35,045 bases of DNA from a virus. The stretch covers positions 1 through 35,045 of the IMG/VR virus record IMGVR_UViG_3300037961_001845. One strand, 5' to 3'. The position numbers and the translations under genes are program-made. The notes under the pieces are model-generated. The model searched no databases. It was not told the origin of the DNA and saw only the letters and a list, made by a program, of their open reading frames with translations. Shown piece by piece: positions 6,695 through 31,148 of the stretch (the first letter of the stretch is position 1; every line of letters begins with the position of its first letter).

Positions 6695-7363
6695 TCAATA
6701 ATCCTTTATCATTGTAGTGATTCCTCTATAAACCATTTCGGGGTCAGACTTTGCAGATACAATATACTTGAAACAGGGTATTCCTTTATCATTTAACTTT
6801 CTCATGCCGTATTTAAATGGTTCAAAAATTTCGTGTTTGTCAATAGATTGTCCTTCTTCTAATGGGTATTTCTTTCCCCATATATCATATTTATTTGCCC
6901 AAATACCTACTGCCATTGGATAATCCGAATCTCTTTTCTTTTTTCCATTTGACCATGTGCTTGAAATAATTGAATCCACTAAAAATTTCCATGCTAATTG
7001 GTGGTCTAGGTTTGCTTCACTATCTAAATGTCGGTGGTCAATCATAAAAATAACATATTTGACTCTTCTATTTTGCATATCCTTTTCCCATTCTTTCCAG
7101 TAAATTGCTTCTCCACCAATATCTGCGCTTCTTACTGTATGTGAGTCTCCGTCTATTTTGACATTCTTTCTCGTTGCTCTATGTCTCCCAACGGTTCTTT
7201 GTTGTATTTGCGGAACTTCTCCTCTCGTTCTCAATTGATGACTAAGTGTTGTTTTACCAACCATTGTTGCTCCATAAACTCCAAAATTTATTGCATGAAC
7301 TTTTTTGTAAAATCCTATGATTGCTTCACCGACAAGAATAGCAAAGCCTGTCATTAATGACAT
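6695..7363 (-). CDS. Arf/Ras-like small GTPase with N-terminal membrane segment
   Basis: All five G motifs can be read in this 222-aa protein: P-loop GATMVGKT (30-37), a Thr-containing switch I region (about 57), DIGG (81-84) in the place of the DxGG motif of Arf-like GTPases, NKYD (157-160) and SAKSD near the C-terminus as G5. Residues 3-18 (LMTGFAILVGEAIIGF) are hydrophobic and likely a membrane anchor. I start at ATG 7361-7363, which overlaps the stop of the upstream gene as TAATG and has a GGTGGGGG ribosome binding site; a GTG four codons earlier is the alternative. GTP binding is well supported. The role is unknown, and such a GTPase between capsid and neck genes is unusual. The two upstream genes also encode membrane proteins, which suggests a joint function. 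Confidence 0.8.
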   Translation of the reverse strand: MSLMTGFAILVGEAIIGFYKKVHAINFGVYGATMVGKTTLSHQLRTRGEVPQIQQRTVGRHRATRKNVKIDGDSHTVRSADIGGEAIYWKEWEKDMQNRRVKYVIFMIDHRHLDSEANLDHQLAWKFLVDSIISSTWSNGKKKRDSDYPMAVGIWANKYDIWGKKYPLEEGQSIDKHEIFEPFKYGMRKLNDKGIPCFKYIVSAKSDPEMVYRGITTMIKDY

Positions 7364-7581
7364 TAATGCCCCCACCCGTTTAACAAAGTGTCAAACAGGA
7401 AACCCATGATGTTTATATCAAAAACACCAAGAATGTTTCCAACAAGGAAACCAGAAAGACCAGCACAAAAGCCCCAAAACCATGCTCGCATTTTCAAAAA
7501 GAAAATGTCAGCAGAATGCGCTCTTTGTTGATTATAAGCGTAGTCCGAATCGGAAAAGCCCATTATGTCTCCAAAGACCAT
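7363..7581 (-). CDS. Small membrane protein next to GTPase
   Basis: A 72-aa protein from ATG 7579-7581 with a GGCGGTGAAAG ribosome binding site. After a polar N-terminus (SDSDYAYNQQRAHS) it has a hydrophobic stretch from about residue 34 to 68 (FWGFCAGLSGFLVGNILGVF, then IMGFLFDTLL), enough for one or two membrane passes. Its TAA stop shares bases with the GTPase start, so the two are probably translationally coupled. Possible roles are a membrane anchor for the GTPase or a virion membrane or channel component. A holin-like role is possible but its position in the head module argues against it. Confidence 0.6.
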   Translation of the reverse strand: MVFGDIMGFSDSDYAYNQQRAHSADIFFLKMRAWFWGFCAGLSGFLVGNILGVFDINIMGFLFDTLLNGWGH

Positions 7582-9005: not shown

Positions 9006-10358
9006 TCAAAGGAGATTGGTAATCTTTCCTTGACCCTTGAAGTAAGAACAACCAGTTTCAGCCATTGTGCGGTAAAGAGCCTTGTTTCCAAGGTTGCCGA
9101 CACCGAATGGGTTTCCGTTGCTGATACCATCCTCAAAGTATTGAGTTGGCTTCATAACAGATAGCCACAAATGGTCAGTATCAAGGAAAAGCATATCACT
9201 AATCAAACTGGAGTTATTACCCGTAGAAGGCATAGCAGCGACAGGAATCAAAGGAATGTCGTAGTAAGTAGAAACACGGAAACCGACTTCTGCACCCTTA
9301 ACACCACGAACACCGTTCACAGTTGGAACGATTTCCTTTCTATCCATGAAACGCTCTTGAGCCTGAAGCAAGTCAGAAAGCGTTTGAAGCGTATCATATC
9401 CCGTAAGAATGACCTTTGGTGAACCACCAGCAACACGGAGTCTGCGAACCATGTCGTTAATCACAGTAAGCGTCAATTGTCGTGCTTCTGCGGAAAGGTA
9501 GCCATCACCGAAAGAAACCTCAGCATCCAAATACTCGTTGCCCGACGCACTTCGGAGTTTTCCGTAAAGGGTGTCAATTTGTTGGTCAGTAGCCGTTCCA
9601 ACAAGGTTTCCGCCAGAATTGTCAGCCAATTCAGTAATTTCAGCAGAGTTAGCAACAATCTTGTAAAGAGAGGTGTAGCCTCGGTCAATTGCGTTAAGAG
9701 TCGTATATGCCGTGGTTGGGGAATAGTTCTCCAAAGGCATAACAAGCATTTGATTCTGGACTTCAGCGTGGTGCTTACCCATATCTTCTCTCAATTGAGC
9801 ACGAATATCACCGATACCATCGTCAATTTGAGCCATTTCCATAGCCAATTCGCTGAAAGCAAATTGATGAGCGATGATTTTCGGGCTGGTAAAGAGCGTA
9901 TCGTATTCGGGAGCAATTGAAATCAAACCATCCGTGTTTGAATCAAGGCTGGCGTTTTCGGGAACACCACCGATTCGGTCAGCACGAAGGGAATCATCAC
10001 CATAAAGCGAGTCCGAAAGAGCCGTATTGGAAGCCTTGGTAATATCAAGGAAATTACCCGTTCCACCAGCAGGACGCTTCTTAAGGATTCTCCAACCGCT
10101 TGAAGAATAAGGTCGCTTTGCGATAACAGACAATGCGTTGCATTCTCGGTTTAGCATAGACCAGACCTTTTGGCCGTAAATTTTGTTGTAAAGGTTTGCA
10201 TTAATACCCGTTGGGTCGCTTAATGAACCATCGTGAGCGACATGAATGCCGCTAACGGTTCCTGCGGCCTTTAGCAATTGGTTGCTAATATGACCCGTTG
10301 CGCCCGTTCCGTATGTTGCTGCTTCTAAATCTGCAATAGTGTTAATATATCCTACCAT
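9006..10358 (-). CDS. Major capsid protein (HK97-type)
   Basis: A 450-aa protein from ATG 10356-10358 with a strong GAGGTGATTT ribosome binding site. It directly follows the prohead protease/scaffold gene and precedes small beta-rich head proteins, the standard MCP position. Features fitting an HK97-fold capsid protein are an N-terminal Gly/Ala-rich arm, a long central helix region (FAFSELAMEMAQIDDGIGDIRAQ, split here as about residues 165-190), the helix containing LTLTVINDMVRRLRVAGGSPKV (about 290-310), and a C-terminal beta segment (HLWLSVMKPTQYFEDG). Codon and base composition here are somewhat less AT-rich than in neighbours, as is usual for a highly expressed gene. There is no N-terminal scaffold domain; scaffolding is supplied by the upstream gene. 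Confidence 0.8.
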   Translation of the reverse strand: MVGYINTIADLEAATYGTGATGHISNQLLKAAGTVSGIHVAHDGSLSDPTGINANLYNKIYGQKVWSMLNRECNALSVIAKRPYSSSGWRILKKRPAGGTGNFLDITKASNTALSDSLYGDDSLRADRIGGVPENASLDSNTDGLISIAPEYDTLFTSPKIIAHQFAFSELAMEMAQIDDGIGDIRAQLREDMGKHHAEVQNQMLVMPLENYSPTTAYTTLNAIDRGYTSLYKIVANSAEITELADNSGGNLVGTATDQQIDTLYGKLRSASGNEYLDAEVSFGDGYLSAEARQLTLTVINDMVRRLRVAGGSPKVILTGYDTLQTLSDLLQAQERFMDRKEIVPTVNGVRGVKGAEVGFRVSTYYDIPLIPVAAMPSTGNNSSLISDMLFLDTDHLWLSVMKPTQYFEDGISNGNPFGVGNLGNKALYRTMAETGCSYFKGQGKITNLL

Positions 10359-10369
10359 TTTAAATCACC

Positions 10370-11029
10370 TCAAAGGTTTCCTCCAACCATTTTATGAATG
10401 TCAGCCCAATCCATTTCGGCTAATTCATCCATAGTAGGGAGTTTGATTTGGGCTTCTTCTTGAGCCTTAATGATGTTGTCTCTTTCAGCCGTCAAAGACT
10501 TTCGGAGAGAAGCAAATTCATTCTTAAGAGAAGCAATTTCGGAAGCCGCATCATATTGCGACTTTGCGAGAATGTTTTCTCTCGTTGAAGTTTCAGCCGC
10601 AAAGCGAGCCTCAAATTGCTTTTGGAGATTGTCGTATGCTAACTTTTCAAGTTGTTCTTGACGGAAAGCCTCGTAAGCCTTCTCAATGTTTCCAACGGAC
10701 AAATCAAGGGTTTCAAGTTCATCATTGTCAAAAGCCTTCACAACGGGCAAATCCGATGCTCTTGGCTTTCCGTTGTCAATAACGATTCGGTCAGCAGGTT
10801 CGCCAATTTCAACACCTGCACCATCAAGAGTGGAAACATAGGCTTTGGCTTCATCATCCATGTATTCGCCCATACCCTTTTCATCCATCATCTTTTCGTC
10901 ATCATCTTCCATAGCCATGCCCTTTTCTTCATCGGACATATCCATGCTTTCTTCTTCTTCCTTTCTCAGCATATTGACTTCCTCCATAAGAGCGTCAAGT
11001 TCTGCCAATGCTTTTTCAATTTTGGTCAT
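10370..11029 (-). CDS. Nested in-frame scaffold protein (internal start)
   Basis: The protease frame contains ATG at 11027-11029 (codon 180), preceded at a 5-base spacing by AGGTGA (minus strand, 11040-11035) within AAAAAAGGTGAAAAATATG. This is one of the better ribosome binding sites in the window and lies exactly at the protease-to-scaffold boundary. The product would be 219 aa, highly acidic, coiled coil, ending EMDWADIHKMVGGNL. Lambda C/Nu3 uses the same nested arrangement to make free scaffold. The site is seen directly; its use is inferred. Confidence 0.6.
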   Translation of the reverse strand: MTKIEKALAELDALMEEVNMLRKEEEESMDMSDEEKGMAMEDDDEKMMDEKGMGEYMDDEAKAYVSTLDGAGVEIGEPADRIVIDNGKPRASDLPVVKAFDNDELETLDLSVGNIEKAYEAFRQEQLEKLAYDNLQKQFEARFAAETSTRENILAKSQYDAASEIASLKNEFASLRKSLTAERDNIIKAQEEAQIKLPTMDELAEMDWADIHKMVGGNL

Positions 11030-11566
11030 ATTTTTCACCTTTTTTGTTTTGTCTTGCTTTAAAATGTCAAACTTTGCTTCTGGATTAATTCCTTTTTCAC
11101 AAATAGTGACTTCATGTAATTCTAACTTTGAAATTTCGTTGTATTGTCCAAATTCATCATTGGTTTTCTTTACTTTTTCTAAAGCCTGTCCTCCAATACT
11201 GAAACTTCTTAATGAACCTTTTCTAATGCCTCGGTTAATTTCCTTTGCCTTTTCAATATCATCTCTTAATTTGATTACTACAAAGAATCCGACATCATCA
11301 ACTTCTGTTTTGAATAGTCTCCCTGATTTATCTCGGTATGATTCAACGACTTCTCCGACTTGAACATTTGAATGGTTTGTCATTACATTTCTAAACTTTG
11401 GGTTCTCCATGTATTTTTTAACAGCCTCTTTAAGTGCTTTGAGTGTGATTAAATCATTTTGCTTATCAACGATTTCAATGCTTGCATATCCTCCAATCAT
11501 CAAGTCGTCTTGGCTTTTTAGAATCCTGAAATCGTGAGCGTTGTTCCTCATCACCGCAGAAGTCAT
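10370..11566 (-). CDS. Prohead maturation protease with C-terminal scaffold domain
   Basis: A 398-aa protein starting at ATG 11564-11566; a TTG five codons upstream is an alternative. Residues 10-170 match the HK97-type prohead protease pattern: strand GGYASIEIVDKQNDLI (25-40), candidate catalytic His65 in VMTNHSNVQVG, and candidate Ser121 or Ser123 in RSFSIGG. A later strand LELHEVTICEKGINPEA closes the fold. From about 180 the protein becomes an acidic, Met/Asp/Glu-rich coiled coil, typical of scaffolding. It ends with EMDWADIHKMVGGNL, a motif shared with the 81-aa gene at 15224 and related to the N-terminal tags elsewhere. A nested scaffold start is described separately. The protease would cut scaffold and possibly tagged cargo during capsid maturation. 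Confidence 0.8.
   Translation of the reverse strand: MTSAVMRNNAHDFRILKSQDDLMIGGYASIEIVDKQNDLITLKALKEAVKKYMENPKFRNVMTNHSNVQVGEVVESYRDKSGRLFKTEVDDVGFFVVIKLRDDIEKAKEINRGIRKGSLRSFSIGGQALEKVKKTNDEFGQYNEISKLELHEVTICEKGINPEAKFDILKQDKTKKVKNMTKIEKALAELDALMEEVNMLRKEEEESMDMSDEEKGMAMEDDDEKMMDEKGMGEYMDDEAKAYVSTLDGAGVEIGEPADRIVIDNGKPRASDLPVVKAFDNDELETLDLSVGNIEKAYEAFRQEQLEKLAYDNLQKQFEARFAAETSTRENILAKSQYDAASEIASLKNEFASLRKSLTAERDNIIKAQEEAQIKLPTMDELAEMDWADIHKMVGGNL
11035..11040 (-). promoter_or_regulatory. Internal ribosome binding site for nested scaffold
   Basis: AGGTGA lies five bases before an in-frame ATG inside the protease gene. It complements the expected 16S rRNA 3' end as well as the site used for the capsid gene does. 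It decides the proposal that scaffold is also made separately. Confidence 0.6.
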
Positions 11567-11596
11567 TCTTCTCAACCCCAACTACCTATTATCCAG

Positions 11597-11610: not shown

Positions 11611-14592
11611 CTATTCTTCGGTGGGAAGGGGCAATTTATTATACCTATCCTCATAGATGTTCCACTTTCCTTCATCTCCCTCCTTATCGGCAGGTGTTTG
11701 TTTGTAGCCCGTCCAAGCAAGCCACATTTTCTCTCCACCCACATCTAAGACTCTATAATGCATTTTTGTTTCAAACTTATTACCTTCTAAGAAATATTCG
11801 TGATAGCCATCTCTTTGAATACCTAAACGAATTTTACCTGAATCTACTAATTTACCTTTAGTTACTGTTTTTGCTACTTCTGCTGGATATTTACCAGCCG
11901 CTCCGAATAGGTCAAACATTTCTTCTTCGTTCTCAATATTGATAGTCCAAAACATATTTTCTGTTTTTAGACCGATAGCAAAAGTTAAGTTATCATCTTC
12001 TCTTGCATAGATTTTAAATTGACCCTCTCTTAATTCTTTAGGTGTTTTATATTCATCTTCAACGAGTTTAATATCTTCTTTTAACATAGCATATTTATCA
12101 CTAAAACCAGAGTCTCCATAAACGCATTTTTGATAATCTTCTAAGGCTTGTTCTAATAGAGTATAATCCACCCCTTCTGCAGGATTAGAAATGAAATCTT
12201 CGGCTAATTGTGATAAGTAGTCGCAATCTAACATATCTATTGATTTATCCATATTCTGCACTTCTGCTTCATATTCACTTTCCCAAAGGTCGCCATCATA
12301 TGTTTCTGGCTCTGACAAAACAAATTGATATAATTCATCATAACCGCCGAAATATTTAATATGAGAGTCCAAAGTAGATTTTCTGTTTTCTTTAACGGCT
12401 TGCTTTAAATTACGACAACATTCATCATCGTCATTTGAATCAATTTGAACAGCATCATCTTCTTCTGCTTCTTCAATAATTTCTTCAATGCGAACTAATT
12501 CAGCCATTTTGATTAAACTTTTTTTAATTTCTTCTTCTTCCTGCATGATTTTATCATCATCAGCAGCAATTTTATCATCTCTTTCGCTGATACCATCTCT
12601 AAGAATGGCCCATTTCTTTAACTTCTTTTCATCGGAATCAAGAACCTGCTCATACAAATCTTTATGTTTTTCTTTTAAGAAGTTATGAATTTGTCGTGGA
12701 GTCTGTTCACCATTCATTTTTAAGTATTGGAAGATAGCAACAGTTAATTCACTTTGCTTAGTTTTCATAATATCAATGGCCTGTTGTTTCCACATATCTA
12801 AATCCATTGTAGCGTTCTTAGACATTAGGTTATCTTCTTCATAACCATAGATAGTAAAACCATCTAAATCATACTTGATGATAACATTTGCTTCTCCGTG
12901 AATGTGGTCTGTAATTTTAACACCTTTTGTAAATGCTTCAACATTATAGTTAAGAGACTTCTTGGTGTCTTGAGAAAGTAATTCCAAAGTGATTAATTTA
13001 TCGGGATGCTCAACTTCAGGAATTTCAATTGGTTTAGCAGAGAATAAACTAAACCCATTACCCTTCTTCTTAACTTCATCCACCTTAACTCGGATAATAT
13101 CTCCAACATCAACAGCAATTTTTGTATTCAAAGCCTTACCTACATTCAAGTATTGTTTCTTATCAATCTCAACTGTTCCTTCCATTTCTTCATTTATTGG
13201 CCCAATACCGACTGTATAAGAATATAAATTACTCTTTGTCTTTTTCTTTTCTAATACGATAACATCTAAATCAACAAACTTCTTTAACTTAATCCACTTC
13301 GGATTTTTCTTTGTTCCGATGTAATAAGTAGAAGTAGCGTCTTTGATAACGACTCCTTCCGAAGCAGGATTTTGCATAATTTCATCGGCATATTTTTGTA
13401 TATCTTTGAGATTATCTGCTTGTCGGGTATCTTTCTTTGAAGGATAAGCAATCGCTTCACTAGATTTTGATGAATAATTATTGAATAAAATTGTCATTCT
13501 ACTCTCTAATTCTTCATCCACAAGAGTTTGAGACTCATGGCGAATAATATCAAAAACATGACACCTTAATGTAGCATCTTTGTATTTGCCTTTAAAAACA
13601 TGAGCGATTGTATCTGCTCTATGAAGGGGGTCGTCGCCATCAAAAAGAACTAATTCTGCATCAAAAATACAATCTCCATATTCTTTCTTCTTTAATTCAT
13701 CAACCTGTGCTTTACACTTGTCAGTAATGTCTTTTTCATTATAAGAATAAATTTTTACCTTATCATCAATTTTATGCAATTGGACTCTCATGCCGTCAAA
13801 CTTTTCTTGAACATACCAGTTTCCGCTAAATCCCTTTAACTCCTTAATATCATCCACTTCAAAAATTCTATACATGGGTTTATTGGGAACAATAAACTGA
13901 GAGATAGATTTCTTTTCATCGCTTGGCACAGACTTTTGAACCCCTTCAATATCAGTAATGTCTTTCCATTCTTCTTCACTATTCTTAGATAAGAAGATTA
14001 ACTCTAACATATCCATAGCAGCCTTTACTTTGGATTCAACTTTCTTTGAGTCTTTTCCATCCCCGTAATGCTCAATAATATAGAGGGCTACATCGTCCAC
14101 TTCTAGGTCAAGTCCCATAAGACCCTCCGTAATTGTGTCGGGGGTCATGTCTTTAACGCTGTAAATGTCATCGGGTAGGGCTTTATTGTCGTCCCTTATA
14201 GCATAATGCACAAATTTGACCATGCTTTCGGGATTATCTAGCAATTCTTCAAGCACACTATCCTTGAACATGGCGGCGAAGGGGTCGGCCACGATGGATG
14301 AAGAATACCGTAAAAGTTTGATATTCTCGTAAAGTTCTTTGGCTTGGCGTGAAGAGGGGTCTTTGACATCTTTATCGTCTAAATCCTTTTCATCAATGAA
14401 GTTTTTCATTTCTTTGCCAGCAGCATCAGCCTCATTATATGATTCAATAATGGTATCAACTGCTTTACGCCAACGGCCCGAATATTCTGTTGGGTCGCTT
14501 CTTGCAGACAAATAGGCTACCCGTGTCTTTTCAAAAAGACGAAGAATTTCTTGAGAAGGCTGTTTATCCTTCTCAATAGAAGCCAATTTCAT
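11611..14592 (-). CDS. Giant protein with ATP-dependent DNA ligase core
   Basis: A 993-aa protein. Residues about 235-530 are an ATP-dependent DNA ligase core: motif I KFDGMR with nucleotidyl Lys264, motif III DAEL (Glu313), FDII (347-350), motif IV EGVVIK (412-417), motif V WIKLKK (433-438), then an OB-fold region. The sequence around motif I (KFDGMRVQLHK, followed by KVKIYSYNEKDIT) is of the archaeal/eukaryal replicative type. The N-terminal 230 residues are acidic and helical and do not look like a normal DNA-binding domain. After the OB fold come a predicted winged-helix segment (about 640-690), a Glu/Asp-rich linker, and a C-terminal beta domain with MHYRVLDVGGEKMWLAWTG near 950. The usual archaeal ligase is about 550-600 aa. 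Its location among head genes, not replication genes, suggests it may enter the virion. Ligase core certain; extensions unassigned. Confidence 0.85.
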   Translation of the reverse strand: MKLASIEKDKQPSQEILRLFEKTRVAYLSARSDPTEYSGRWRKAVDTIIESYNEADAAGKEMKNFIDEKDLDDKDVKDPSSRQAKELYENIKLLRYSSSIVADPFAAMFKDSVLEELLDNPESMVKFVHYAIRDDNKALPDDIYSVKDMTPDTITEGLMGLDLEVDDVALYIIEHYGDGKDSKKVESKVKAAMDMLELIFLSKNSEEEWKDITDIEGVQKSVPSDEKKSISQFIVPNKPMYRIFEVDDIKELKGFSGNWYVQEKFDGMRVQLHKIDDKVKIYSYNEKDITDKCKAQVDELKKKEYGDCIFDAELVLFDGDDPLHRADTIAHVFKGKYKDATLRCHVFDIIRHESQTLVDEELESRMTILFNNYSSKSSEAIAYPSKKDTRQADNLKDIQKYADEIMQNPASEGVVIKDATSTYYIGTKKNPKWIKLKKFVDLDVIVLEKKKTKSNLYSYTVGIGPINEEMEGTVEIDKKQYLNVGKALNTKIAVDVGDIIRVKVDEVKKKGNGFSLFSAKPIEIPEVEHPDKLITLELLSQDTKKSLNYNVEAFTKGVKITDHIHGEANVIIKYDLDGFTIYGYEEDNLMSKNATMDLDMWKQQAIDIMKTKQSELTVAIFQYLKMNGEQTPRQIHNFLKEKHKDLYEQVLDSDEKKLKKWAILRDGISERDDKIAADDDKIMQEEEEIKKSLIKMAELVRIEEIIEEAEEDDAVQIDSNDDDECCRNLKQAVKENRKSTLDSHIKYFGGYDELYQFVLSEPETYDGDLWESEYEAEVQNMDKSIDMLDCDYLSQLAEDFISNPAEGVDYTLLEQALEDYQKCVYGDSGFSDKYAMLKEDIKLVEDEYKTPKELREGQFKIYAREDDNLTFAIGLKTENMFWTINIENEEEMFDLFGAAGKYPAEVAKTVTKGKLVDSGKIRLGIQRDGYHEYFLEGNKFETKMHYRVLDVGGEKMWLAWTGYKQTPADKEGDEGKWNIYEDRYNKLPLPTEE

Positions 14593-15223: not shown

Positions 15224-15469
15224 TCACTCCATCTTTGAAACCATTTTGTGAATATCCGACCAATCCATGCTAGAAACATCAGTAGATGGTAATGTATCAA
15301 AACCACCAACAGTATTATCCATAGCAGGTGTTGGGCTTTGTGAAACAACAAGGCCAGCCTTCATCAAAAGACTGTCTTTTGCATAGATTGTCTTTTCCAA
15401 CGCTTCAACCTTTGCAGTTAAAGCCTTAATAATTTCTAAAACATCTTTGTTAATACTTTCTTCTGTCAT
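15224..15469 (-). CDS. 81-aa coiled-coil protein with scaffold-like C-terminal motif
   Basis: The start is ATG 15467-15469, right after the TGA of the upstream tagged gene; a longer frame overlapping that gene is a shadow. Residues 8-35 form a short coiled coil (DVLEIIKALTAKVEALEKTI). The C-terminus ends SMDWSDIHKMVSKME, nearly the same as the end of the protease/scaffold (EMDWADIHKMVGGNL). Over the 30 bases coding MDWxDIHKMV the two genes match at 25 positions, and the Asp and His codons differ only synonymously. This points to conserved peptide function. I infer a small accessory scaffold or an adaptor binding the same capsid or portal site. Confidence 0.65.
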   Translation of the reverse strand: MTEESINKDVLEIIKALTAKVEALEKTIYAKDSLLMKAGLVVSQSPTPAMDNTVGGFDTLPSTDVSSMDWSDIHKMVSKME

Positions 15470-15473
15470 AGTA

Positions 15474-15728
15474 TCACATTCCAAACTTAGCCTTGCACTT
15501 TTCTCTTTCTGCTGCATATTCTTCTTCAGACATTCCGCCCTTGCCAAATCTCTTGTTTAAACGGTCAATACAAGCAAGATAACTTTGAGCGTCTAAACTG
15601 CTTCCTCTCATGGGCTTTCTTCTACTTCCACCTCTAAAACCGCGTGAACTCATTCCTCTTGCTTTTGATACTTCATTACAGTCATTACAACCGCAACCGC
15701 TTGCCTTTAAAATTGTTTTCCAACTCAT
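15474..15728 (-). CDS. Tagged Cys-rich basic 84-aa protein
   Basis: It begins MSWKTILKA, the tag common to this genome, followed at once by CGCNDC (residues 12-17), an Arg/Gly/Ser-rich basic stretch (RGFRGGSRRKPMRGS), and a C-terminal helical segment with two more cysteines (SYLACIDRLNKRFGKGG and EREKCKAKFG). It overlaps the preceding gene by 4 bases. The basic middle suggests nucleic-acid contact; the four-plus cysteines could bind a metal. I do not recognise the family. The tag and size suggest internal virion cargo. Confidence 0.65.
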   Translation of the reverse strand: MSWKTILKASGCGCNDCNEVSKARGMSSRGFRGGSRRKPMRGSSLDAQSYLACIDRLNKRFGKGGMSEEEYAAEREKCKAKFGM

Positions 15729-20021: not shown

Positions 20022-20255
20022 TTATGGTTGCCCGCTATCCTCAATGTCATACCTTTCGTTGCTTGAACGCAGCATTTCTTCTAAAATTCCCTTTAAGTAA
20101 GTCGCCCTACTTTCAGGTCGCTTAAATCCTAATTTTAAATAGTAAATAACCATTCTTTTATTAATGTCTGCTAAGTTAGAAAACTTAACATATTTTTTCC
20201 TATCTCTAGGTAATTCATCATTTAAGATTCCATTTTTAAGTTGTTTCCAACTCAT
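20022..20255 (-). CDS. Tagged 77-aa basic protein (MSWKQLKNG)
   Basis: A longer frame opens at ATG 20285, but that would overlap the Cys-rich gene upstream. The ATG at 20253-20255 yields MSWKQLKNGILND, in line with the tag on neighbours, so I prefer it. The body is basic and helical (RDRKKYVKFSNLADINKR, then a hydrophobic YYLKLGF), with SRATYLKGILEEMLRSSNER near the end. No strong ribosome binding site is seen, so translation may be coupled to the gene ending at 20267. The family is not recognised. Confidence 0.6.
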   Translation of the reverse strand: MSWKQLKNGILNDELPRDRKKYVKFSNLADINKRMVIYYLKLGFKRPESRATYLKGILEEMLRSSNERYDIEDSGQP

Positions 20256-20266
20256 TTTATTTTTAA

Positions 20267-20431
20267 TTAATAGGGTTTGGTCCATAATAAAGCCTCATCA
20301 ATTTTACAAGTCAAGCATCTATTTGATATTACTTCTTTTCTACATCTTCTGCAAACAGTCGCGTATCTAATTTTTTTAGGTAGTTTAGTTCTTACTTTAT
20401 GTTTAAAAATATCGTAGTGCTGGCGAGGCAT
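20267..20431 (-). CDS. 54-aa zinc-ribbon-like small protein
   Basis: A short gene starting at ATG 20429-20431, sharing one base with the TAA of the upstream gene (TAATG). The product begins MPRQHYDIFKHKV, is strongly basic, and carries CRRC (residues 27-30) and CLTC (39-42), two CxxC pairs nine residues apart, as in a rubredoxin- or zinc-ribbon-like knuckle. It ends LLWTKPY. It has no tag. It is probably a nucleic-acid-binding or structural zinc protein. Confidence 0.6.
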   Translation of the reverse strand: MPRQHYDIFKHKVRTKLPKKIRYATVCRRCRKEVISNRCLTCKIDEALLWTKPY

Positions 20432-20895
20432 TAACAGTTCCACCTTCTTCTTGCGGCCTTTGCTTTCTCGCTGTAAGTTCCATCTGCTCGTTTAAATCCT
20501 CTTGACCTTGCACAAAAAGACTTTCTTCTCTTGTATGCTTTACCGCCTCTTTTAAGTTTGCTTGGCTTTTTAGTGACTGGACGCTTTAAATTAGCACCTG
20601 TTTCTCTCTTGAATTTAGCACGACCTTTTGCACTTAATCCACCCGTTCTTGCGTGAATCTTTTTATTGTAGCCCTTGAAGGGTTTCTTTTTAAGAATAGG
20701 TTCGTGGGTATAAATATCTCCATCCTTGTGCATGAAAATTTTGCCTTCTTTTCTTAGTTTAGATAATGCCTGTTTGATTTCTGTTTCTTCACCAAACTGC
20801 TTTAGATTTTTCATTCCCAATGCTCCGCCTTCTTTCTCAATCTCACTAAGAATTTTTGATTCTAAATCTGCTTTAAGTATTTCTTTCCAAGTCAT
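20431..20895 (-). CDS. Tagged basic protein with SFCARSRG...RRRWNC C-terminal domain
   Basis: A 154-aa protein. N-terminal tag MTWKEILKA, then a winged-helix-like segment (about residues 12-60: SEIEKEGGALGMKNLKQFGE, and IKQALSKLRKEGKIFM followed by a short wing). The C-terminal part is very basic and ends with ARTGGLSAKGRAKFKRETGA, a Lys/Pro-rich stretch, KRRKSFCARSRGF and a final RRRWNC. I recall this C-terminal pattern as a small uncharacterised family spread through many tailed viruses (DUF6321-like by memory; not checked). The combination suggests a DNA-binding internal protein carried by the tag. The stop overlaps the next gene start. Confidence 0.7.
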   Translation of the reverse strand: MTWKEILKADLESKILSEIEKEGGALGMKNLKQFGEETEIKQALSKLRKEGKIFMHKDGDIYTHEPILKKKPFKGYNKKIHARTGGLSAKGRAKFKRETGANLKRPVTKKPSKLKRGGKAYKRRKSFCARSRGFKRADGTYSEKAKAARRRWNC

Positions 20896-22765: not shown

Positions 22766-24838
22766 TCACAACTCTATGTTTCCATACTTTTCAATGTAAT
22801 GTTTAATATATTTCTGCATTCTTCCAATTGCATAACTGTAATTTTGCCCAGACTCAAACATCAAGTCAGCCATTTTTAATTCCGAAAATATTTTTTTACC
22901 TTCATCATCTAATTTTTCTGGTTTATTAGCCAAAAGTTTTTTAGTGGTTGTGATGATGTGTTCTACTTCTTTATCGCCTAATTTTTTCTTTTCTCTTAGG
23001 TAGGGTGTTGAACTTTTAATAATATCATAATCAAAACCAAAAACTAAACTTTTATATTTGCGCTCTAAATAATCCTGAATAATCTCGTAATTCTGCGACC
23101 AAGAGTTTTGTTCTATATCAATAGGAAGTCCTTGACTTTGTAGGCTTTCTAAAGATACTGTAAAATCTTCTTTCATAGTCTCTTTTTCATCATCAAGACG
23201 AATGTTTCGGATTTCAATTTTTTCGGATTTAACAATAGTTCCATCGGCTCTAACCTCATAATAAGAAAAACCACTATGAAGCCAACCAGATTCTGTGCTA
23301 ATCCAAGAAGATAACTCATCTTCAATTTCTTCTCTATCATCGTTTTCATCAATTTCTAATTCTTTAGCAGTTATAGCGCCTACTTGAAACAATAACTCAG
23401 AGGGGTCATCACTTGCCTCTTCTTCTAATTTAGTGTCCCAATCAACACTAGTAATAATAAAAGTTCTCTCTTGTTGTTTAACAATTGTTCCGATGTTCTC
23501 TAAAGAGTCCATAACCGACATTTTACAATTGTCTTTATATTTTTGAATATCATCTAAATAGATGCCTTCTTTCAACCAATCAAAACCTACATGGTCTTTA
23601 TGGTTTTCCCATTTCATTAACTTAAAAATTTCATCACAGCGGTCTTTATACCAATCAGCCTTCTTATATGACTTTTTCATCCGAATTAACTCAAGCAACA
23701 ATTCAGCGTTGCCTTTCTTAAGACGAAAGTGAGGAAGACAGTTCTTTAACAGTTTAGAAACATCATCCTGAGAATAAAAGTTTAATCTATTGATTAAACG
23801 AGTCGCTTGTGGAGATTTCTGGTCTAGATGCATTCTACCGAAACCAAGAGACTTATGCATTTCTTGCATAAAAGCCTTACCTCTTTCTCCTGTTGCGACT
23901 AATCCTACTCTTGGATTCATGTTGCGGTCAAGAGTAATATAACCATCCGAGTCAATAAATGCAGCAGTATAAGCCCAAATGTTTTTCTTAATCATAGATG
24001 GAACTTTATAGTAAGAACCCTTAACTGAAGTAATATCTAATTTTTTGATTGCCTTTGAGATTGAATTGGCACTTGATGACTTGTGTAAATCAGTAGGCAT
24101 TCTTTCATGTATAGCAGAAGCATTAATTCCTGGATTTTCACAAACCATCTTAATAATAAAGTCTTGCTTTCGTTCTGTTTTTGATTTTGTAAGCGATTGG
24201 TCAGTAATTTTAGCAATAGCATTTCTAAAATCCTTTTTAGCAGAAGACATGGTTTTATGAAGTTCACTATACTTTTGATTATAAGGCATACCATTCTGCT
24301 CTAATTCTGCTTCCCAATATTTACAAAGGGCATCAATTGTCTCTCTTCTTAATTCAGCACTCTTCATCTTGTGAAGTTTAGATAAATCCTTTTCATTGTA
24401 TCTCATTTTCCTTAGAGGAATCTCATAATCATTTAGCCAAGTAATAGAAGAAATACACTTATTCAAATGGTCTGTATAAGCATCAATCATTGTATCAATT
24501 GCTTTAGACATTCGTGTTCGGTGTTCCCCCTTTAATGCACGACGAGCCTTTCTCATCTTTCTAACTAAGTCTGGAATAGTGTGTTCTTGAACAATATATT
24601 CGTTTGGAAAAGACGCTAATTTTTTCCTTGCATCACTAGCATTAATGTTAAAAGCAGAAGATAATTTAGTAATTTCTTCATGCTCAGACATTACATAAGA
24701 ATTGCTGAAGATACTCTTTAATTCAGTATCTAATTGCTCCTCTATGGTATCTTTAACTTGTTCTTCTTCTTCATCTAAATCGGCTAAACGGTTCATTTGT
24801 TCAGCCGCTTGACGGTATTTATCTGCCTGTTCTGTCAT
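22766..24838 (-). CDS. 690-aa protein with LAGLIDADG endonuclease-like domain
   Basis: It starts at ATG 24836-24838 with a GAGGTG ribosome binding site. Residues 1-215 are charged helices; about 215-275 resemble a winged helix (KMVCENPGINASAIHERMP and SISKAIKKLDI). Next comes YTAAFIDSDGYITLD (about 288-302), a LAGLIDADG motif, with the typical follow-on GRMHLDQK, a helix NRLNFYSQDDVSKLLKNCLP and ELLLELIRMKKSYKKADWYK through about 420. The C-terminal 270 residues are acidic and unassigned. I see no intein splice junctions (no Cys/Ser start and no HN-Cys/Ser/Thr end around the domain), so the endonuclease fold is built into this protein. It directly follows the large terminase gene. Possible roles are homing, a terminase nuclease partner, or a DNA-binding regulator. 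Confidence 0.7.
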   Translation of the reverse strand: MTEQADKYRQAAEQMNRLADLDEEEEQVKDTIEEQLDTELKSIFSNSYVMSEHEEITKLSSAFNINASDARKKLASFPNEYIVQEHTIPDLVRKMRKARRALKGEHRTRMSKAIDTMIDAYTDHLNKCISSITWLNDYEIPLRKMRYNEKDLSKLHKMKSAELRRETIDALCKYWEAELEQNGMPYNQKYSELHKTMSSAKKDFRNAIAKITDQSLTKSKTERKQDFIIKMVCENPGINASAIHERMPTDLHKSSSANSISKAIKKLDITSVKGSYYKVPSMIKKNIWAYTAAFIDSDGYITLDRNMNPRVGLVATGERGKAFMQEMHKSLGFGRMHLDQKSPQATRLINRLNFYSQDDVSKLLKNCLPHFRLKKGNAELLLELIRMKKSYKKADWYKDRCDEIFKLMKWENHKDHVGFDWLKEGIYLDDIQKYKDNCKMSVMDSLENIGTIVKQQERTFIITSVDWDTKLEEEASDDPSELLFQVGAITAKELEIDENDDREEIEDELSSWISTESGWLHSGFSYYEVRADGTIVKSEKIEIRNIRLDDEKETMKEDFTVSLESLQSQGLPIDIEQNSWSQNYEIIQDYLERKYKSLVFGFDYDIIKSSTPYLREKKKLGDKEVEHIITTTKKLLANKPEKLDDEGKKIFSELKMADLMFESGQNYSYAIGRMQKYIKHYIEKYGNIEL

Positions 24839-26288: not shown

Positions 26289-28172
26289 TCAATCTAATTC
26301 GCCTTTAAAGTATGGTTCCATCAATTCCATAAGTTTTTTAACTTCTTCCTCTGGATGTTCTCTAGTAATTTTATTTTCATATATGGCTTTTTGGTGGCCT
26401 TTATTCATAGATAAATTAATTTGAAATCGGTCTAATTGTATTTGTGCTTCTTCTAAGTTAAAAGGCTCAGTCTGACTCAATAAATCATCTGTTGAATCTT
26501 CTAATATCTCTTCTTTAGGTTCATGGCCAGGTTTAATTCCATCATAGAATAAATTCAAAAGAGGTTCTTTGTCTGGGCCAATAACATTATCAACGGGATA
26601 TTTATCACCATCATCAATGTGATGAAGAACAACAACTTTTCCTATCTGTTCAATTCTATTTTTGCTCTTTCTGTATTTTAAATCCCCAACATAAAGTTGT
26701 CTATATCCCCTATTAACTCTTGCTTTTAATTGTTTTATTTTAGAATTGCTACCTTCTAAAACATCAAAGATTACTAAATCGTGCCTGCTGGGAATATCGT
26801 TGGTATAACACCAATAACTCATATTACTAGGAGGCAAAGAAAGAAGTCTATCCTCTAACACCCTATCAATAAAAGGATGATTTATGTTTCTTTGAGGCTT
26901 GCCGCTTCTGTCATAATCAGCCCTTTTTCCTTCATAGGTTTTAATATAATTAGGAGTCATTATGATAGCAACATTTTTATTTTTATCTATACGAGTTAAT
27001 GTCCCTCCTTCTCCATTTTGATTTACCCATCCTTTTTGTTTTTCATAAGAAAAGTCTGCTTTAAATTTAAGAATATCTTTCCAAGACTTCTCAAAAGTCG
27101 GGAAAATATTCTTCGGTTCTTTTGGTAGTCTTCTTCCTCTCTTCAAACCACGCACCCCATATTTTCCATGAATGTCAAGAAATTTTCTTCCCTTTGGAAT
27201 ACCTTGTCCTCTTTTGACTTTGCCGACCATTTCTTTGCTAACGCCTGTAAAAATAATAGCAGTTTCAAATCCTTCCAAATTAAGTTTCTTATCTGCGTTT
27301 GGTGTGTAAGGCTCTCCTTGTTTGATAACATCAATCATAACATATGTATTGTCTTGCTTCACATTCGTCCCAAAGAACCAGTATTTTCCTTTCTTTAGAT
27401 TCATCTCAGTTAATTTTTCCAACCAACCTTGCATTAAAGAAGTTCCCGCATTCGGTATTCTATCGCTGACCTGCCTTAAATATTGCTGAGAGACAAATGC
27501 TTTATATTCTGCTTTACCCTTTGACTTGATGTTTTTGTCTTTAAATCTGTCTCTTGTGCCTAAGTCGGGAGCAGGTTCTCCCAACTCAAAATCATCCCAA
27601 GTGTTGTCGGGTAAGTATTTGAGAAGATTAAACCATGATGGAGTAGGGTCGTCAAGATACACGCACTTCGCAAACTCACCCTTTCCACGAATATTACGAA
27701 TAGCCCAATTACCATTAGGGTATGCACTATTCCATTCATTTACTACCGATTCAGGAAGCAATTGTTTCATTTGCTCCCAGTTCTCACTATCGGGAAAAGC
27801 CCATCCGTTCTTTTTTGCAGTAGCAATCCAACGAGCATTATCTCCATCTCTGTGTCCAAAAGCAGCGACTAAGGGTTTAGATTGGTTTAATTGTGGCTCT
27901 CTTGCATCCTGTAATGCACGATTATTTCCACCAATCTGCCTTCCTTCTGCGGTAGCATACATTCCGCCAACCGTAGTATGAGAAGGGTGTTCTTTCCAGC
28001 CAACAGTAGAAATAGTCTTATCTTCATCATTTACACGAATAAGCCAATTATCTAAAGCATAAAGACCAGTTTCTAAATCCTTTCTGCGAGTATAAGGGTC
28101 GTCAGGATTATCCTGAGCAAACCTTCTTTTCATATCTTCATATGAAAAAATCGCAGGGAGAACTTTAGGCAT
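26289..28172 (-). CDS. 627-aa multidomain protein with GNAT-like N-domain and two internal tags
   Basis: Residues about 30-145 resemble a GNAT acetyltransferase: DNWLIRVNDEDKTISTVGWK, then GGMYATAEGRQIGGNNRALQ in place of the acetyl-CoA loop, and DNARWIATAKKNGWAF as the usual C-terminal signature. A second domain begins after PSWFNLLKYL (Trp180), and a third after KSWKDILKFK (Trp364). Both internal peptides match the N-terminal tags; SWFNLLK is identical to that of the adjacent gene (28174-28635), and 18 of 21 bases agree. Each thus sits at an apparent domain boundary, as if three packaged proteins had been fused. The C-terminal part has strands (TLTRIDKNKNVAIIMTPNYI and RHDLVIFDVLEG) of unknown fold. 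Enzyme activity is only suggested. Confidence 0.6.
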   Translation of the reverse strand: MPKVLPAIFSYEDMKRRFAQDNPDDPYTRRKDLETGLYALDNWLIRVNDEDKTISTVGWKEHPSHTTVGGMYATAEGRQIGGNNRALQDAREPQLNQSKPLVAAFGHRDGDNARWIATAKKNGWAFPDSENWEQMKQLLPESVVNEWNSAYPNGNWAIRNIRGKGEFAKCVYLDDPTPSWFNLLKYLPDNTWDDFELGEPAPDLGTRDRFKDKNIKSKGKAEYKAFVSQQYLRQVSDRIPNAGTSLMQGWLEKLTEMNLKKGKYWFFGTNVKQDNTYVMIDVIKQGEPYTPNADKKLNLEGFETAIIFTGVSKEMVGKVKRGQGIPKGRKFLDIHGKYGVRGLKRGRRLPKEPKNIFPTFEKSWKDILKFKADFSYEKQKGWVNQNGEGGTLTRIDKNKNVAIIMTPNYIKTYEGKRADYDRSGKPQRNINHPFIDRVLEDRLLSLPPSNMSYWCYTNDIPSRHDLVIFDVLEGSNSKIKQLKARVNRGYRQLYVGDLKYRKSKNRIEQIGKVVVLHHIDDGDKYPVDNVIGPDKEPLLNLFYDGIKPGHEPKEEILEDSTDDLLSQTEPFNLEEAQIQLDRFQINLSMNKGHQKAIYENKITREHPEEEVKKLMELMEPYFKGELD

Positions 28173-28173
28173 A

Positions 28174-28635
28174 TTATTTCACCTTAGACAATCCCTTTAT
28201 TCTCATATGAAATTTAACATATTCTTCAGGAGGCACGATGTTTTGGTCTGCTGCTTCTTGCAGTATTTGTTTAATTTTTTTGCCTCTTGCTGTGTTATAA
28301 ACATCTGGATGATTTACAAAATTAACTAATCTTAAATGTATGGGGTCAGCAATATTTTCTAAAGCATAAGCAATATATTCTTTTTGACTTTTAAATCTTC
28401 TGCCAAACTCATCATCTGTTTTATCATGTGCTGCGTGGGCTGCTTCGTGATTTATAACTCTAACCAAGTAATCAATTATTTCTTCGTCTGTTGTCTGGTT
28501 TTTAGATTTAAGATATTCATAAATATTTTTCTCATCTATTTCTATTCCTTTATTTTGATTGTAATAAGCGCCTTCTGTTCCTTTAGGTAATTTAGCAAAA
28601 TCAATATTAACTTTGAGCAAGTTAAACCATGACAT
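28174..28635 (-). CDS. Tagged zincin-like metallopeptidase (HEAAH)
   Basis: A 153-aa protein from ATG 28633-28635; AGGTGATGCTT upstream serves as the ribosome binding site, so the earlier GTG/ATG codons are not chosen. It carries the tag MSWFNLLKV at its N-terminus. The motif HEAAH (63-67) in a helix VRVINHEAAHAAHD is the HExxH of zinc metallopeptidases; a downstream Glu in EYIAYALENIADP (86 or 93) could be the third ligand. Its size fits minimal zincins. As a tagged protein it may be packed into the capsid and act during entry. It could be inactive; the motif is short, but its helical context is right. Confidence 0.65.
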   Translation of the reverse strand: MSWFNLLKVNIDFAKLPKGTEGAYYNQNKGIEIDEKNIYEYLKSKNQTTDEEIIDYLVRVINHEAAHAAHDKTDDEFGRRFKSQKEYIAYALENIADPIHLRLVNFVNHPDVYNTARGKKIKQILQEAADQNIVPPEEYVKFHMRIKGLSKVK

Positions 28636-28640
28636 AAGCA

Positions 28641-31148
28641 TCACCTAAAGGATGCCTTAATCATATATACTTGTTCACTACTAATACCATATTCTCTTGA
28701 AATATTTTCGTGAGAATCAACAGCCTTAATTATTTGTTCAACTTCAAAAGAAGTCAAATCAATATTATTATCAATCTGCATCTTCGTAATCATTTTGTTA
28801 ATACCATAATCATTCATAGGAATCTGCCCATAAATGACTGGCTTTCCTAACTGTTCTCTAACAGCGTCGTGAGCCTTCAATAACTTATGGAGAAGAACAG
28901 GCAAATCCACTTGAGCAGATTCAAAGATAGCCTTTAATCTATTATATGCCGCCTTAGAAGCAGGAGACTTTTTGGTAAGAATACCTTGATTCATATCTAA
29001 CCAATGGGGCAAAGCAAAAACAGCGAATGGCTTTCTAGCGTAAAAGTCCTCAAAGAATTGCTCACTTCTTTCAGCAATAGTCTTACCTGCAAATTTATTA
29101 TTTGCTCTCTTCATATCGCCTGTTTCTTTCATATAATGATAAAGTAATGCTGCGGCATAATTATCATTTCTTTCTTCAGTAGAGTTCCCAAAAATATTAG
29201 TCAATCCATCAGCAAATTCTTCTGCATCGGTAATCAAATCAACATCAATCTTAACTTCTGGCATAAAAATGCTATCTAAGAAATCAGCGACCTTATTCAT
29301 ATCTCCAACATCAATTTCTTCTCTTGAACCAGCGAATAAAGTATCATAAGCACCCGACATAACAGTATCTAATCCTAAATCAAGGCTCAATGTTTGTAGC
29401 ACCTTTGAACCAATACCTGATGCAAACGAAGGCATTTCAATAGGTAGCATCCCGCTATAAATTGGGTCAAAGTAATACTTGATTGCTGAATCCATCATCT
29501 TTTGAAGTTCTTCCTTAAATCCTTGAAGTTCTCCTCTCATCGTTCCCTTTTGGTTCAATGATAGAGGAACAGCCCCTCCTTGAATTTGTCCGACTGTTGA
29601 ACCTTGGCCTTGATAATAGTCAAATTGACTTCCTCTCCCTCTTCCTTTAGAACTTCTTGCATCAACTTCTGCAATAAAATCTTCATCTGATAAAATATCA
29701 TATAAGTCATTAAAGAAATCCTTAATTGCAGGAATATTCTCTGAACTAATCATATCCCCTTCATCAGCAGAAGGAAACTTATCTTTACTGCCATACATTT
29801 GAGCAAATTTAGTGTTATCTAAAACAGAAACAGGTAAAGCCAGAACAAAATCCTTCCCTTCATCAAGAATTTGAGTATCAACGGTTTGCTCTAACCATTC
29901 TTCAATATCAACCTGTGTTTCTAACGAAACGCCTTCACCTTCATCCAAATATTCAATCATATCTTCAAGCATTTCCTTAATTTCGGATTCCATTCTTGAA
30001 TTAATTGTGATTAGTTTTTCTCCTCTGTTATATTCATAAACTAAAAGAGGGTCTGCTTCAAAAATAAGTTGGTCGTATTCATCAGCCCAAGTTGTTTTCT
30101 GTTGTAATTCTTCTTCCCATTCGGAAACATCAAGGTCAATTGCTCCGCCTTCTGTGCTACTTCCTGATGCTAAGGAAGATTCAAGGTATCTCAACATTTG
30201 AGCATTTACATCTCCTTCCCTCGCTGCTATCTCTTCTTTAGTATCAGCATATCCTTTTTGAGAAGTGTCTTTATCCAGCATTCTGTCAATAGCCAATTTA
30301 TGAACTACGATATTAAAAAATCTATGATAGCCAGATTCAAATGGGCGAGTAATATTTTCAAATACAGCAATATATTCTAAGTTCATTCTGCCATCAAGAA
30401 TCTGTTTATACAATTTGTCAAATTTCTTTTGGATTGCTTCGGGAAAGTCAACATTTTCAACCTCAATAAAGAAATTAGCCATGTCTTCTTCAAATTGTGT
30501 ATAAAGTTTCCCAATTTCTGCCCAGTAGTTATATACCTTTTTACGAACAGATTTCTTAGAAACATCAACAGCACCTAAGAAATCATTCATGTTGATTTTG
30601 AATTCTTTGTATTCTGCAACATCTAATTTGTTTTCAAGTGCTTCTTGAATTAGTTCTAAATTATGCCTAAAGTTTTCGGGCAACTTAGCGGCTTCGTTTC
30701 CTAATACATTGTTTATTTGATTTAATATATCTTTTCTGGGATTTCTAATATCAATTCTTCCCTTAATTTTATCGCTGGTTAATTGAACAGAAGTGACTCT
30801 TGCACCTTGATTATACAGATTTAATCGCAAAAATGGCTTAACTACCTCTTCCATACTGGTTGCGGCAACCTGTGTTTTCTTAGCCTTCTTGCCTTTTATT
30901 TGTTCATTAATGTATTTTCTTGCGCCTTTGACTTTTCCAGGAATTTTGTCAAAAGCCGCCCTTCTTTCGTCTTCTCTCTCAATTAAACGAGCCTTATCTT
31001 TCAGAGCATTAGTAAATCGTGTAGTGATACTGGCAATTTCCGACCTTCTTTCAGCACCATCAGCAAGAGCCAAGCCCTCAACCCTTTCAGGAGATAAGCC
31101 TAGCATTTCTTTTTCTTCAGCAGTTAAGACTCTAATTTCTTCTGTCAT
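28641..31148 (-). CDS. 835-aa uncharacterised protein, probable internal virion protein
   Basis: It starts at ATG 31146-31148, overlapping the previous stop (ATGA). It has no tag. The sequence is mostly helical and charged, with an N-terminal basic region (KVKGARKYINEQIKGKKAKK, about 75-95), a long Glu/Asp-rich middle, and a C-terminal helix-turn-helix-like end (FEVEQIIKAVDSHENISREY then GISSEQVYMIKASFR). Genes this large between the packaging genes and the left end of a module are often ejection or internal proteins. No known domain is recognised. Confidence 0.6.
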   Translation of the reverse strand: MTEEIRVLTAEEKEMLGLSPERVEGLALADGAERRSEIASITTRFTNALKDKARLIEREDERRAAFDKIPGKVKGARKYINEQIKGKKAKKTQVAATSMEEVVKPFLRLNLYNQGARVTSVQLTSDKIKGRIDIRNPRKDILNQINNVLGNEAAKLPENFRHNLELIQEALENKLDVAEYKEFKINMNDFLGAVDVSKKSVRKKVYNYWAEIGKLYTQFEEDMANFFIEVENVDFPEAIQKKFDKLYKQILDGRMNLEYIAVFENITRPFESGYHRFFNIVVHKLAIDRMLDKDTSQKGYADTKEEIAAREGDVNAQMLRYLESSLASGSSTEGGAIDLDVSEWEEELQQKTTWADEYDQLIFEADPLLVYEYNRGEKLITINSRMESEIKEMLEDMIEYLDEGEGVSLETQVDIEEWLEQTVDTQILDEGKDFVLALPVSVLDNTKFAQMYGSKDKFPSADEGDMISSENIPAIKDFFNDLYDILSDEDFIAEVDARSSKGRGRGSQFDYYQGQGSTVGQIQGGAVPLSLNQKGTMRGELQGFKEELQKMMDSAIKYYFDPIYSGMLPIEMPSFASGIGSKVLQTLSLDLGLDTVMSGAYDTLFAGSREEIDVGDMNKVADFLDSIFMPEVKIDVDLITDAEEFADGLTNIFGNSTEERNDNYAAALLYHYMKETGDMKRANNKFAGKTIAERSEQFFEDFYARKPFAVFALPHWLDMNQGILTKKSPASKAAYNRLKAIFESAQVDLPVLLHKLLKAHDAVREQLGKPVIYGQIPMNDYGINKMITKMQIDNNIDLTSFEVEQIIKAVDSHENISREYGISSEQVYMIKASFR

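Follow-up and report, generated by a model that had tools for sequence, protein, structure and literature searches.

In phage T4, the first ten residues of IPIII suffice as a capsid targeting sequence (CTS), such targeting peptides are removed by the prohead protease, and Alt is an ADP-ribosyltransferase that is delivered to the host (PMC9026906). In encapsulin systems, the stretch coding for the cargo peptide lies at one end or the other of the gene for the cargo (PMC7355545). Here we describe a short tryptophan-containing peptide (hereafter the tag) that recurs in late proteins encoded in a 35,045-nucleotide viral stretch, IMG/VR record IMGVR_UViG_3300037961_001845 (hereafter the window), and in its relatives. 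The class of virus is indicated in part by one head gene.

9006-10358, minus strand: major capsid protein (MCP; SU10_MCP in Pfam; matches archaeal tailed virus MCPs), the putative binding partner of the tag

Within the GenBank phage set, the MCP matches only archaeal tailed viruses; its hits among genome contigs (L060, L061) lie only in a Maricaulis MAG and are probably misbinned archaeal virus contigs. The relatives of the window resemble the Magrovirales (Aoguangviridae, Apasviridae) as described, both in their opposed modules and in their replication genes (PMC10768690, PMC12999244): a size of about 95 kb, opposed modules, B-family polymerase, cpn60, RFC and ligase are alike in the two. G003 and G008, of 94-97 kb, are both built of opposed modules; encoded in G003 are a B-family polymerase, spread over two ORFs, as well as cpn60, RFC, DNA ligase, UvrD and a ribonucleotide reductase; the traits B-family polymerase, chaperonin and opposed modules were found in these two relatives, the window comprising the late block only. 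Judged by gene content, the contigs are magrovirus-like, from archaeal tailed viruses with hosts probably among the abundant ocean archaea; Poseidoniales would be the candidate hosts. One relative, G001 (L016-L025; 184,733 bases), has two MCPs and two late blocks, is about twice the size of the other relatives and is possibly two joined genomes.

The late strand of the window encodes a 627-aa protein with two internal tags, and the features below describe it and the gene upstream.

26289-28172, minus strand: three-module fusion protein, 627 aa (translation; relatives)
27618-27638, minus strand: first internal tag SWFNLLK (W180; residues 179-185), C-terminal tag of module 1 (translation, DNA match, alignment A2, L070)
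27066-27086, minus strand: second internal tag SWKDILK (W364; residues 363-369) (translation; DNA breakpoint against G001 directly after the tag)
28174-28644, minus strand: upstream N-terminally tagged gene, starting MSWFNLLK, with a HEAAHAAHD motif
27636-28172, minus strand: module 1, residues 1-179, predicted GNAT-like fold (Foldseek; alone in L070; alignment A2)
27084-27614, minus strand: module 2, residues 187-363, with copy 1 of the tag-associated domain at 200-357 (iterated search, E 9e-49)
26292-27062, minus strand: module 3, residues 371-627, with domain copy 2 at 383-555 and then a predicted helical tail (iterated search, E 5e-39; model)

Both peptides to which an earlier note had drawn attention, PSWFNLLKYL (W180) and KSWKDILKFK (W364), are present in the translation, and SWFNLLK is, as it had stated, identical to the N-terminus of the upstream gene: 18 of the 21 bases match and the likeness stops at the tag. 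The record holds just two DNA stretches coding for WFNLLK, 27618-27635 and, in the N-terminus of the upstream gene, 28612-28629. When the 627-aa protein was shuffled 20,000 times, two loose motifs appeared in 0.3% of the shuffles and two strict motifs (W.[DNE][IL][IL]K) in 0.005%, so a chance origin of the two tags is unlikely. No family was found for the protein in Pfam or PHROGs, nor any relative in the GenBank phage set. The HEAAHAAHD of the upstream protein is a zinc-metallopeptidase-like motif (no Pfam match above cut-off), and longer relatives of that protein are also tagged.

The AlphaFold model of the whole 627-aa protein is weak overall (pLDDT 56, pTM 0.29), and its three ordered regions are set apart by segments with a pLDDT of about 28-42, in which both tryptophans lie. 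Domain boundaries had been proposed near the tags, and the ordered regions do split at these low-confidence linkers containing W180 and W364. The model therefore argues against a single continuous fold with the tryptophans buried in its core, the outcome that would have spoken against separate modules, although low pLDDT does not by itself prove disorder. Module 1 (pLDDT about 60-89) has no Pfam match at E 1; in Foldseek searches of the PDB its ten best matches (E below 1e-3) are all acetyltransferases of the GNAT fold, the best at E 7e-5 and probability 1.00. The predicted fold is thus common to module 1 and GNAT acetyltransferases, and in place of their CoA-binding loop R/QxxGxG/A most alignment rows of module 1 have RxIGGN, with N replacing the last G/A. 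By analogy with T4 Alt, one might speculate that module 1 could be a delivered acyltransferase. The repeated domain of modules 2 and 3, modelled in isolation, is predicted with higher confidence (pLDDT 79, pTM 0.74), its N-terminal tag being of low confidence; it has no convincing match in the PDB (Foldseek best E 0.2; VIA-align Z below 4), which does not in itself prove a new fold.

Comparison with the 18 IMG/VR contigs that carry module 1 revealed how variable this arrangement is. Module 1 is conserved (56-96% identity over the best segment), and the part downstream of its tag varies. In G001, module 1 is followed by the same second domain and a different third domain; in G003 and G005, two tags stand nearly back to back behind it, followed by another domain; and in L069, L077 and G011, it is followed by other domains and by a small one that is a separate gene in the window.

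20022-20285, minus strand: small gene starting MSWKQLK, its domain fused behind module 1 in L069, L077 and G011

In L070, module 1 stands alone as a 189-aa protein that ends ...DWFNMLKRRN, with nothing after its own C-terminal tag, and W180 is therefore the C-terminal tag of module 1 as well as the start of module 2. The proposal that each tag precedes a new domain needs amending to this extent, and both tags do lie at real module boundaries. A stand-alone 183-aa tagged gene of G011 retrieves both module 2 (9e-49) and module 3 (5e-39) in an iterated search, indicating that the two are paralogous copies of one domain; a profile of this domain proved too diverse for scanning the whole collection. 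Three relatives (G011, L069, L077) encode the repeated domain as a gene by itself, tagged at the N-terminus. L070 also has the second domain as a gene by itself, there with no clear tag, a point against the explanation favoured below. Stand-alone copies have a C-terminal EPxNPF tail, and EPKNIF is retained immediately ahead of the second tag, in line with complete genes having been fused end to start. In several tagged proteins (L058 2057-2605, L069 9648-10196, G005 44319, G008 55013), a second recurrent short motif, [DEK]PxNPF, precedes the C-terminus by about ten residues. Several other families also occur in both split and fused states at tags, among them the following.

20431-20895, minus strand: fusion of a winged-helix-like part and DUF6321, tag MTWKEILK; in relatives, DUF6321 occurs as a tagged gene by itself

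At the DNA level, similarity between contigs breaks at the tags. The window and G001 are mostly 93-97% identical through the second tag, then 53%, then 27-47%; against G003, G004 or G005, the window is 77-100% identical before the first tag, and identity drops under 50% in the next ten codons or so. A stretch of about 38 bp that includes a tag is common to G004 and the window, an island flanked on either side by unrelated DNA. At tag positions, synonymous codons follow background usage and the residues are nearly fixed; because the codons are used as in the background, it is the peptide that appears to be under selection. Recombination thus appears to have used the tag DNA while selection acts on the peptide. 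A search for relatives with the modules as separate genes had been proposed as a check, and such relatives exist, with module 1 alone in L070 and the second domain in G011, L069 and L077. Together with the DNA breakpoints at tags and the low-confidence tag regions of the AlphaFold model, these separate and fused states strongly support that the 627-aa protein is a late-gene fusion at tags. The earlier suggestion of separately tagged genes joined in one frame is upheld, with the corrections that the first tag belongs C-terminally to module 1 and that modules 2 and 3 are duplicates.

The tag is widespread beyond this gene. Its consensus is M-[SNT]-W-x-[DNE]-I-L-K, where strong conservation ends, and the window has many N-terminal examples.

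15474-15728, minus strand: N-tagged late gene, starting MSWKTILK
1245, 1680, 18003, 20895, 21298, 21717, 22055, 31145 (variant MSWFEQLK), 33439, 34338, 34556: further N-tagged late genes

Among 1,281 distinct ORFs of relatives, called by a simple longest-ORF rule, W..[ILV][ILVM][KR] occurs 164 times within the 12 N-terminal residues, where 1.2 occurrences would be expected; the reversed strict motif does not occur in that N-terminal stretch. The sampling sites of the relatives overlap, and the counts are not independent. By BLAST clustering, 189 N-tagged ORFs form about 75 families, many of them basic; a PAP2-family and a DUF6321 protein belong to them. In two-sided genomes, nearly all tags lie on the late strand (27 of 133 late-strand ORFs versus 0 of 142 on the other strand in G001; 13 of 70 versus 0 of 77 in G004). 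It occurs at N-terminal, internal and C-terminal positions, as for a binding peptide. A search of 2.9 million viral contigs with a strict tag DNA pattern returned 108 stretches; among the 80 analysed, most have further tags and proteins similar to those of the viruses described here, and a minority look like chance. The literature searched, by literal tag strings, does not mention the tag, and a magrovirus query returned only a polymerase paper. We rejected a role in translation start or as a leader, since tags are also internal and C-terminal and their codon usage is ordinary, and also a role as membrane anchor, as none of the about 75 N-tagged families has a clear transmembrane stretch. The MCP match HLWLSVMK was excluded as a tag because it is a conserved interior stretch.

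A similar peptide forms the C-terminus of two further late proteins.

10370-11581, minus strand: prohead protease (Peptidase_S78; Pfam), its C-terminus EMDWADIHKMVGGNL (10373-10417) resembling the tag and conserved in relatives
15224-15469, minus strand: late protein of 81 aa, a scaffold-like candidate (its ORF is listed from 15547), ending SMDWSDIHKMVSKME (15227-15271)

In nearly all of the relatives examined, the C-terminus of both proteins reads M-x-W-x-[DE]-I-[HN]-K-M, and more diverged C-termini of the two keep W-x-[DE]-I. The pattern [ML].W.[DE]I is found 239 times at N-termini, 174 times at C-termini and 12 times in interiors (redundant counts). In the head region of halovirus HCTV-1, neither the N-terminal tag nor the C-terminal motif is present. 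The look-alike differs from the tag at +4, with H/N in place of L/I, and for this reason a common partner is not proven. The simplest reading of the likeness is nevertheless that tag and look-alike may bind one partner, for which the shell protein would be the obvious candidate.

Several neighbouring late genes deserve mention. Adjoining the protease, a 993-aa late-block protein (11611-14592, minus strand) includes a domain of ATP-dependent DNA ligases (Pfam 6e-29); a large protein is retained beside the protease in relatives too, and the early block of G003 holds an additional, separate ligase gene. A further gene, situated among those for head and tail (6695-7375, minus strand), encodes a small GTPase-like protein (weak MMR_HSR1/Ras-type Pfam matches). 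The gene adjoining TerL (22766-24838, minus strand) has an HNH/homing-endonuclease-like PHROG match at 289-406, possibly an insert, its homologues being shorter in G003 (607 aa) and G008 (453 aa).

The 627-aa protein is a fusion of late genes, in which a GNAT-like module with its own C-terminal tag is joined to two copies of the second domain, with a further tag in front of the second of these copies. We consider it fairly probable that the tag is a capsid-loading peptide and that its joints double as points of recombination and fusion. The tag would most likely draw its carrier into the prohead during assembly by docking on the surface that the similar C-termini of the protease and the 81-aa protein also bind; the carriers would be enclosed together with the DNA and in this way reach the host. 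Recombination at the tag DNA would swap, fuse and split modules, so that tags stay inside fused proteins as linkers. With slightly more doubt than belief, we extend this to a general magrovirus cargo-loading code, in which one short peptide, akin to the C-termini of the protease and the 81-aa protein and set at the N-terminus, the C-terminus or the joints of dozens of unrelated proteins, would mark cargo, a gene acquired at a joint would become virion cargo, and the joint DNA would drive modular exchange.

Three other explanations have to be weighed against capsid loading. The tag might recruit late proteins to a place other than the prohead, such as the tail, the baseplate or a host assembly site; its motif spacing is that of a short amphipathic helix, and tagged genes are spread throughout the late strand rather than lying only beside head genes. 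We nonetheless judge such a destination unlikely, as the closest look-alike sits on the prohead protease and on a small protein encoded nearby, and many carriers are small and basic, like the T4 internal proteins (PMC9026906). The earlier note had offered a polyprotein as an alternative to gene fusion, with the prohead protease cutting at or near the internal tags and freeing separate proteins inside the capsid. An S78 protease is indeed encoded, in T4 such a protease takes off the targeting peptides (PMC9026906), and the model places both tags in linkers of low confidence, but the linkers vary from one relative to another, and none of the 20 positions behind the tag holds a conserved residue. 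With no conserved site there, cleavage is without sequence support; we found no positive evidence for a polyprotein and think it quite improbable.

The tag might instead persist chiefly as a joint for recombination at the DNA level and have no function as a peptide, given that breakpoints coincide with tags and that the 38-bp island is common to unrelated contexts. Such a joint would keep bases rather than residues, the opposite of the background codon usage and near-fixed residues observed, and we find this explanation very hard to credit. If the tag is instead a capsid-loading peptide, sequence would predict which unknown late genes of marine archaeal viruses are virion cargo, cargo would be seen to evolve by swapping at a common joint, and a short tag for loading archaeal HK97-type capsids would be available as a candidate for testing.

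The proposed loading tag has parallels in both systems introduced above. Like the T4 CTS of IPI-IPIII and Alt, it is a short N-terminal peptide on unrelated, often basic late proteins of a virus that encodes a prohead protease (PMC9026906, PMC3012670), and the T4-type trait of one short N-terminal peptide on diverse late proteins is evident here. In contrast to the CTS, the tag is unrelated in sequence, is also internal and C-terminal, has no conserved cleavage site after it and is a putative packaging signal. Unlike the encapsulin system, it belongs to a virus with many tagged late genes and with a similar peptide on the protease and the 81-aa protein, and the shell is its putative partner; like the encapsulin cargo loading peptide, it is short, can stand at either end of unrelated putative cargo and occurs together with an HK97-type shell (PMC7355545).
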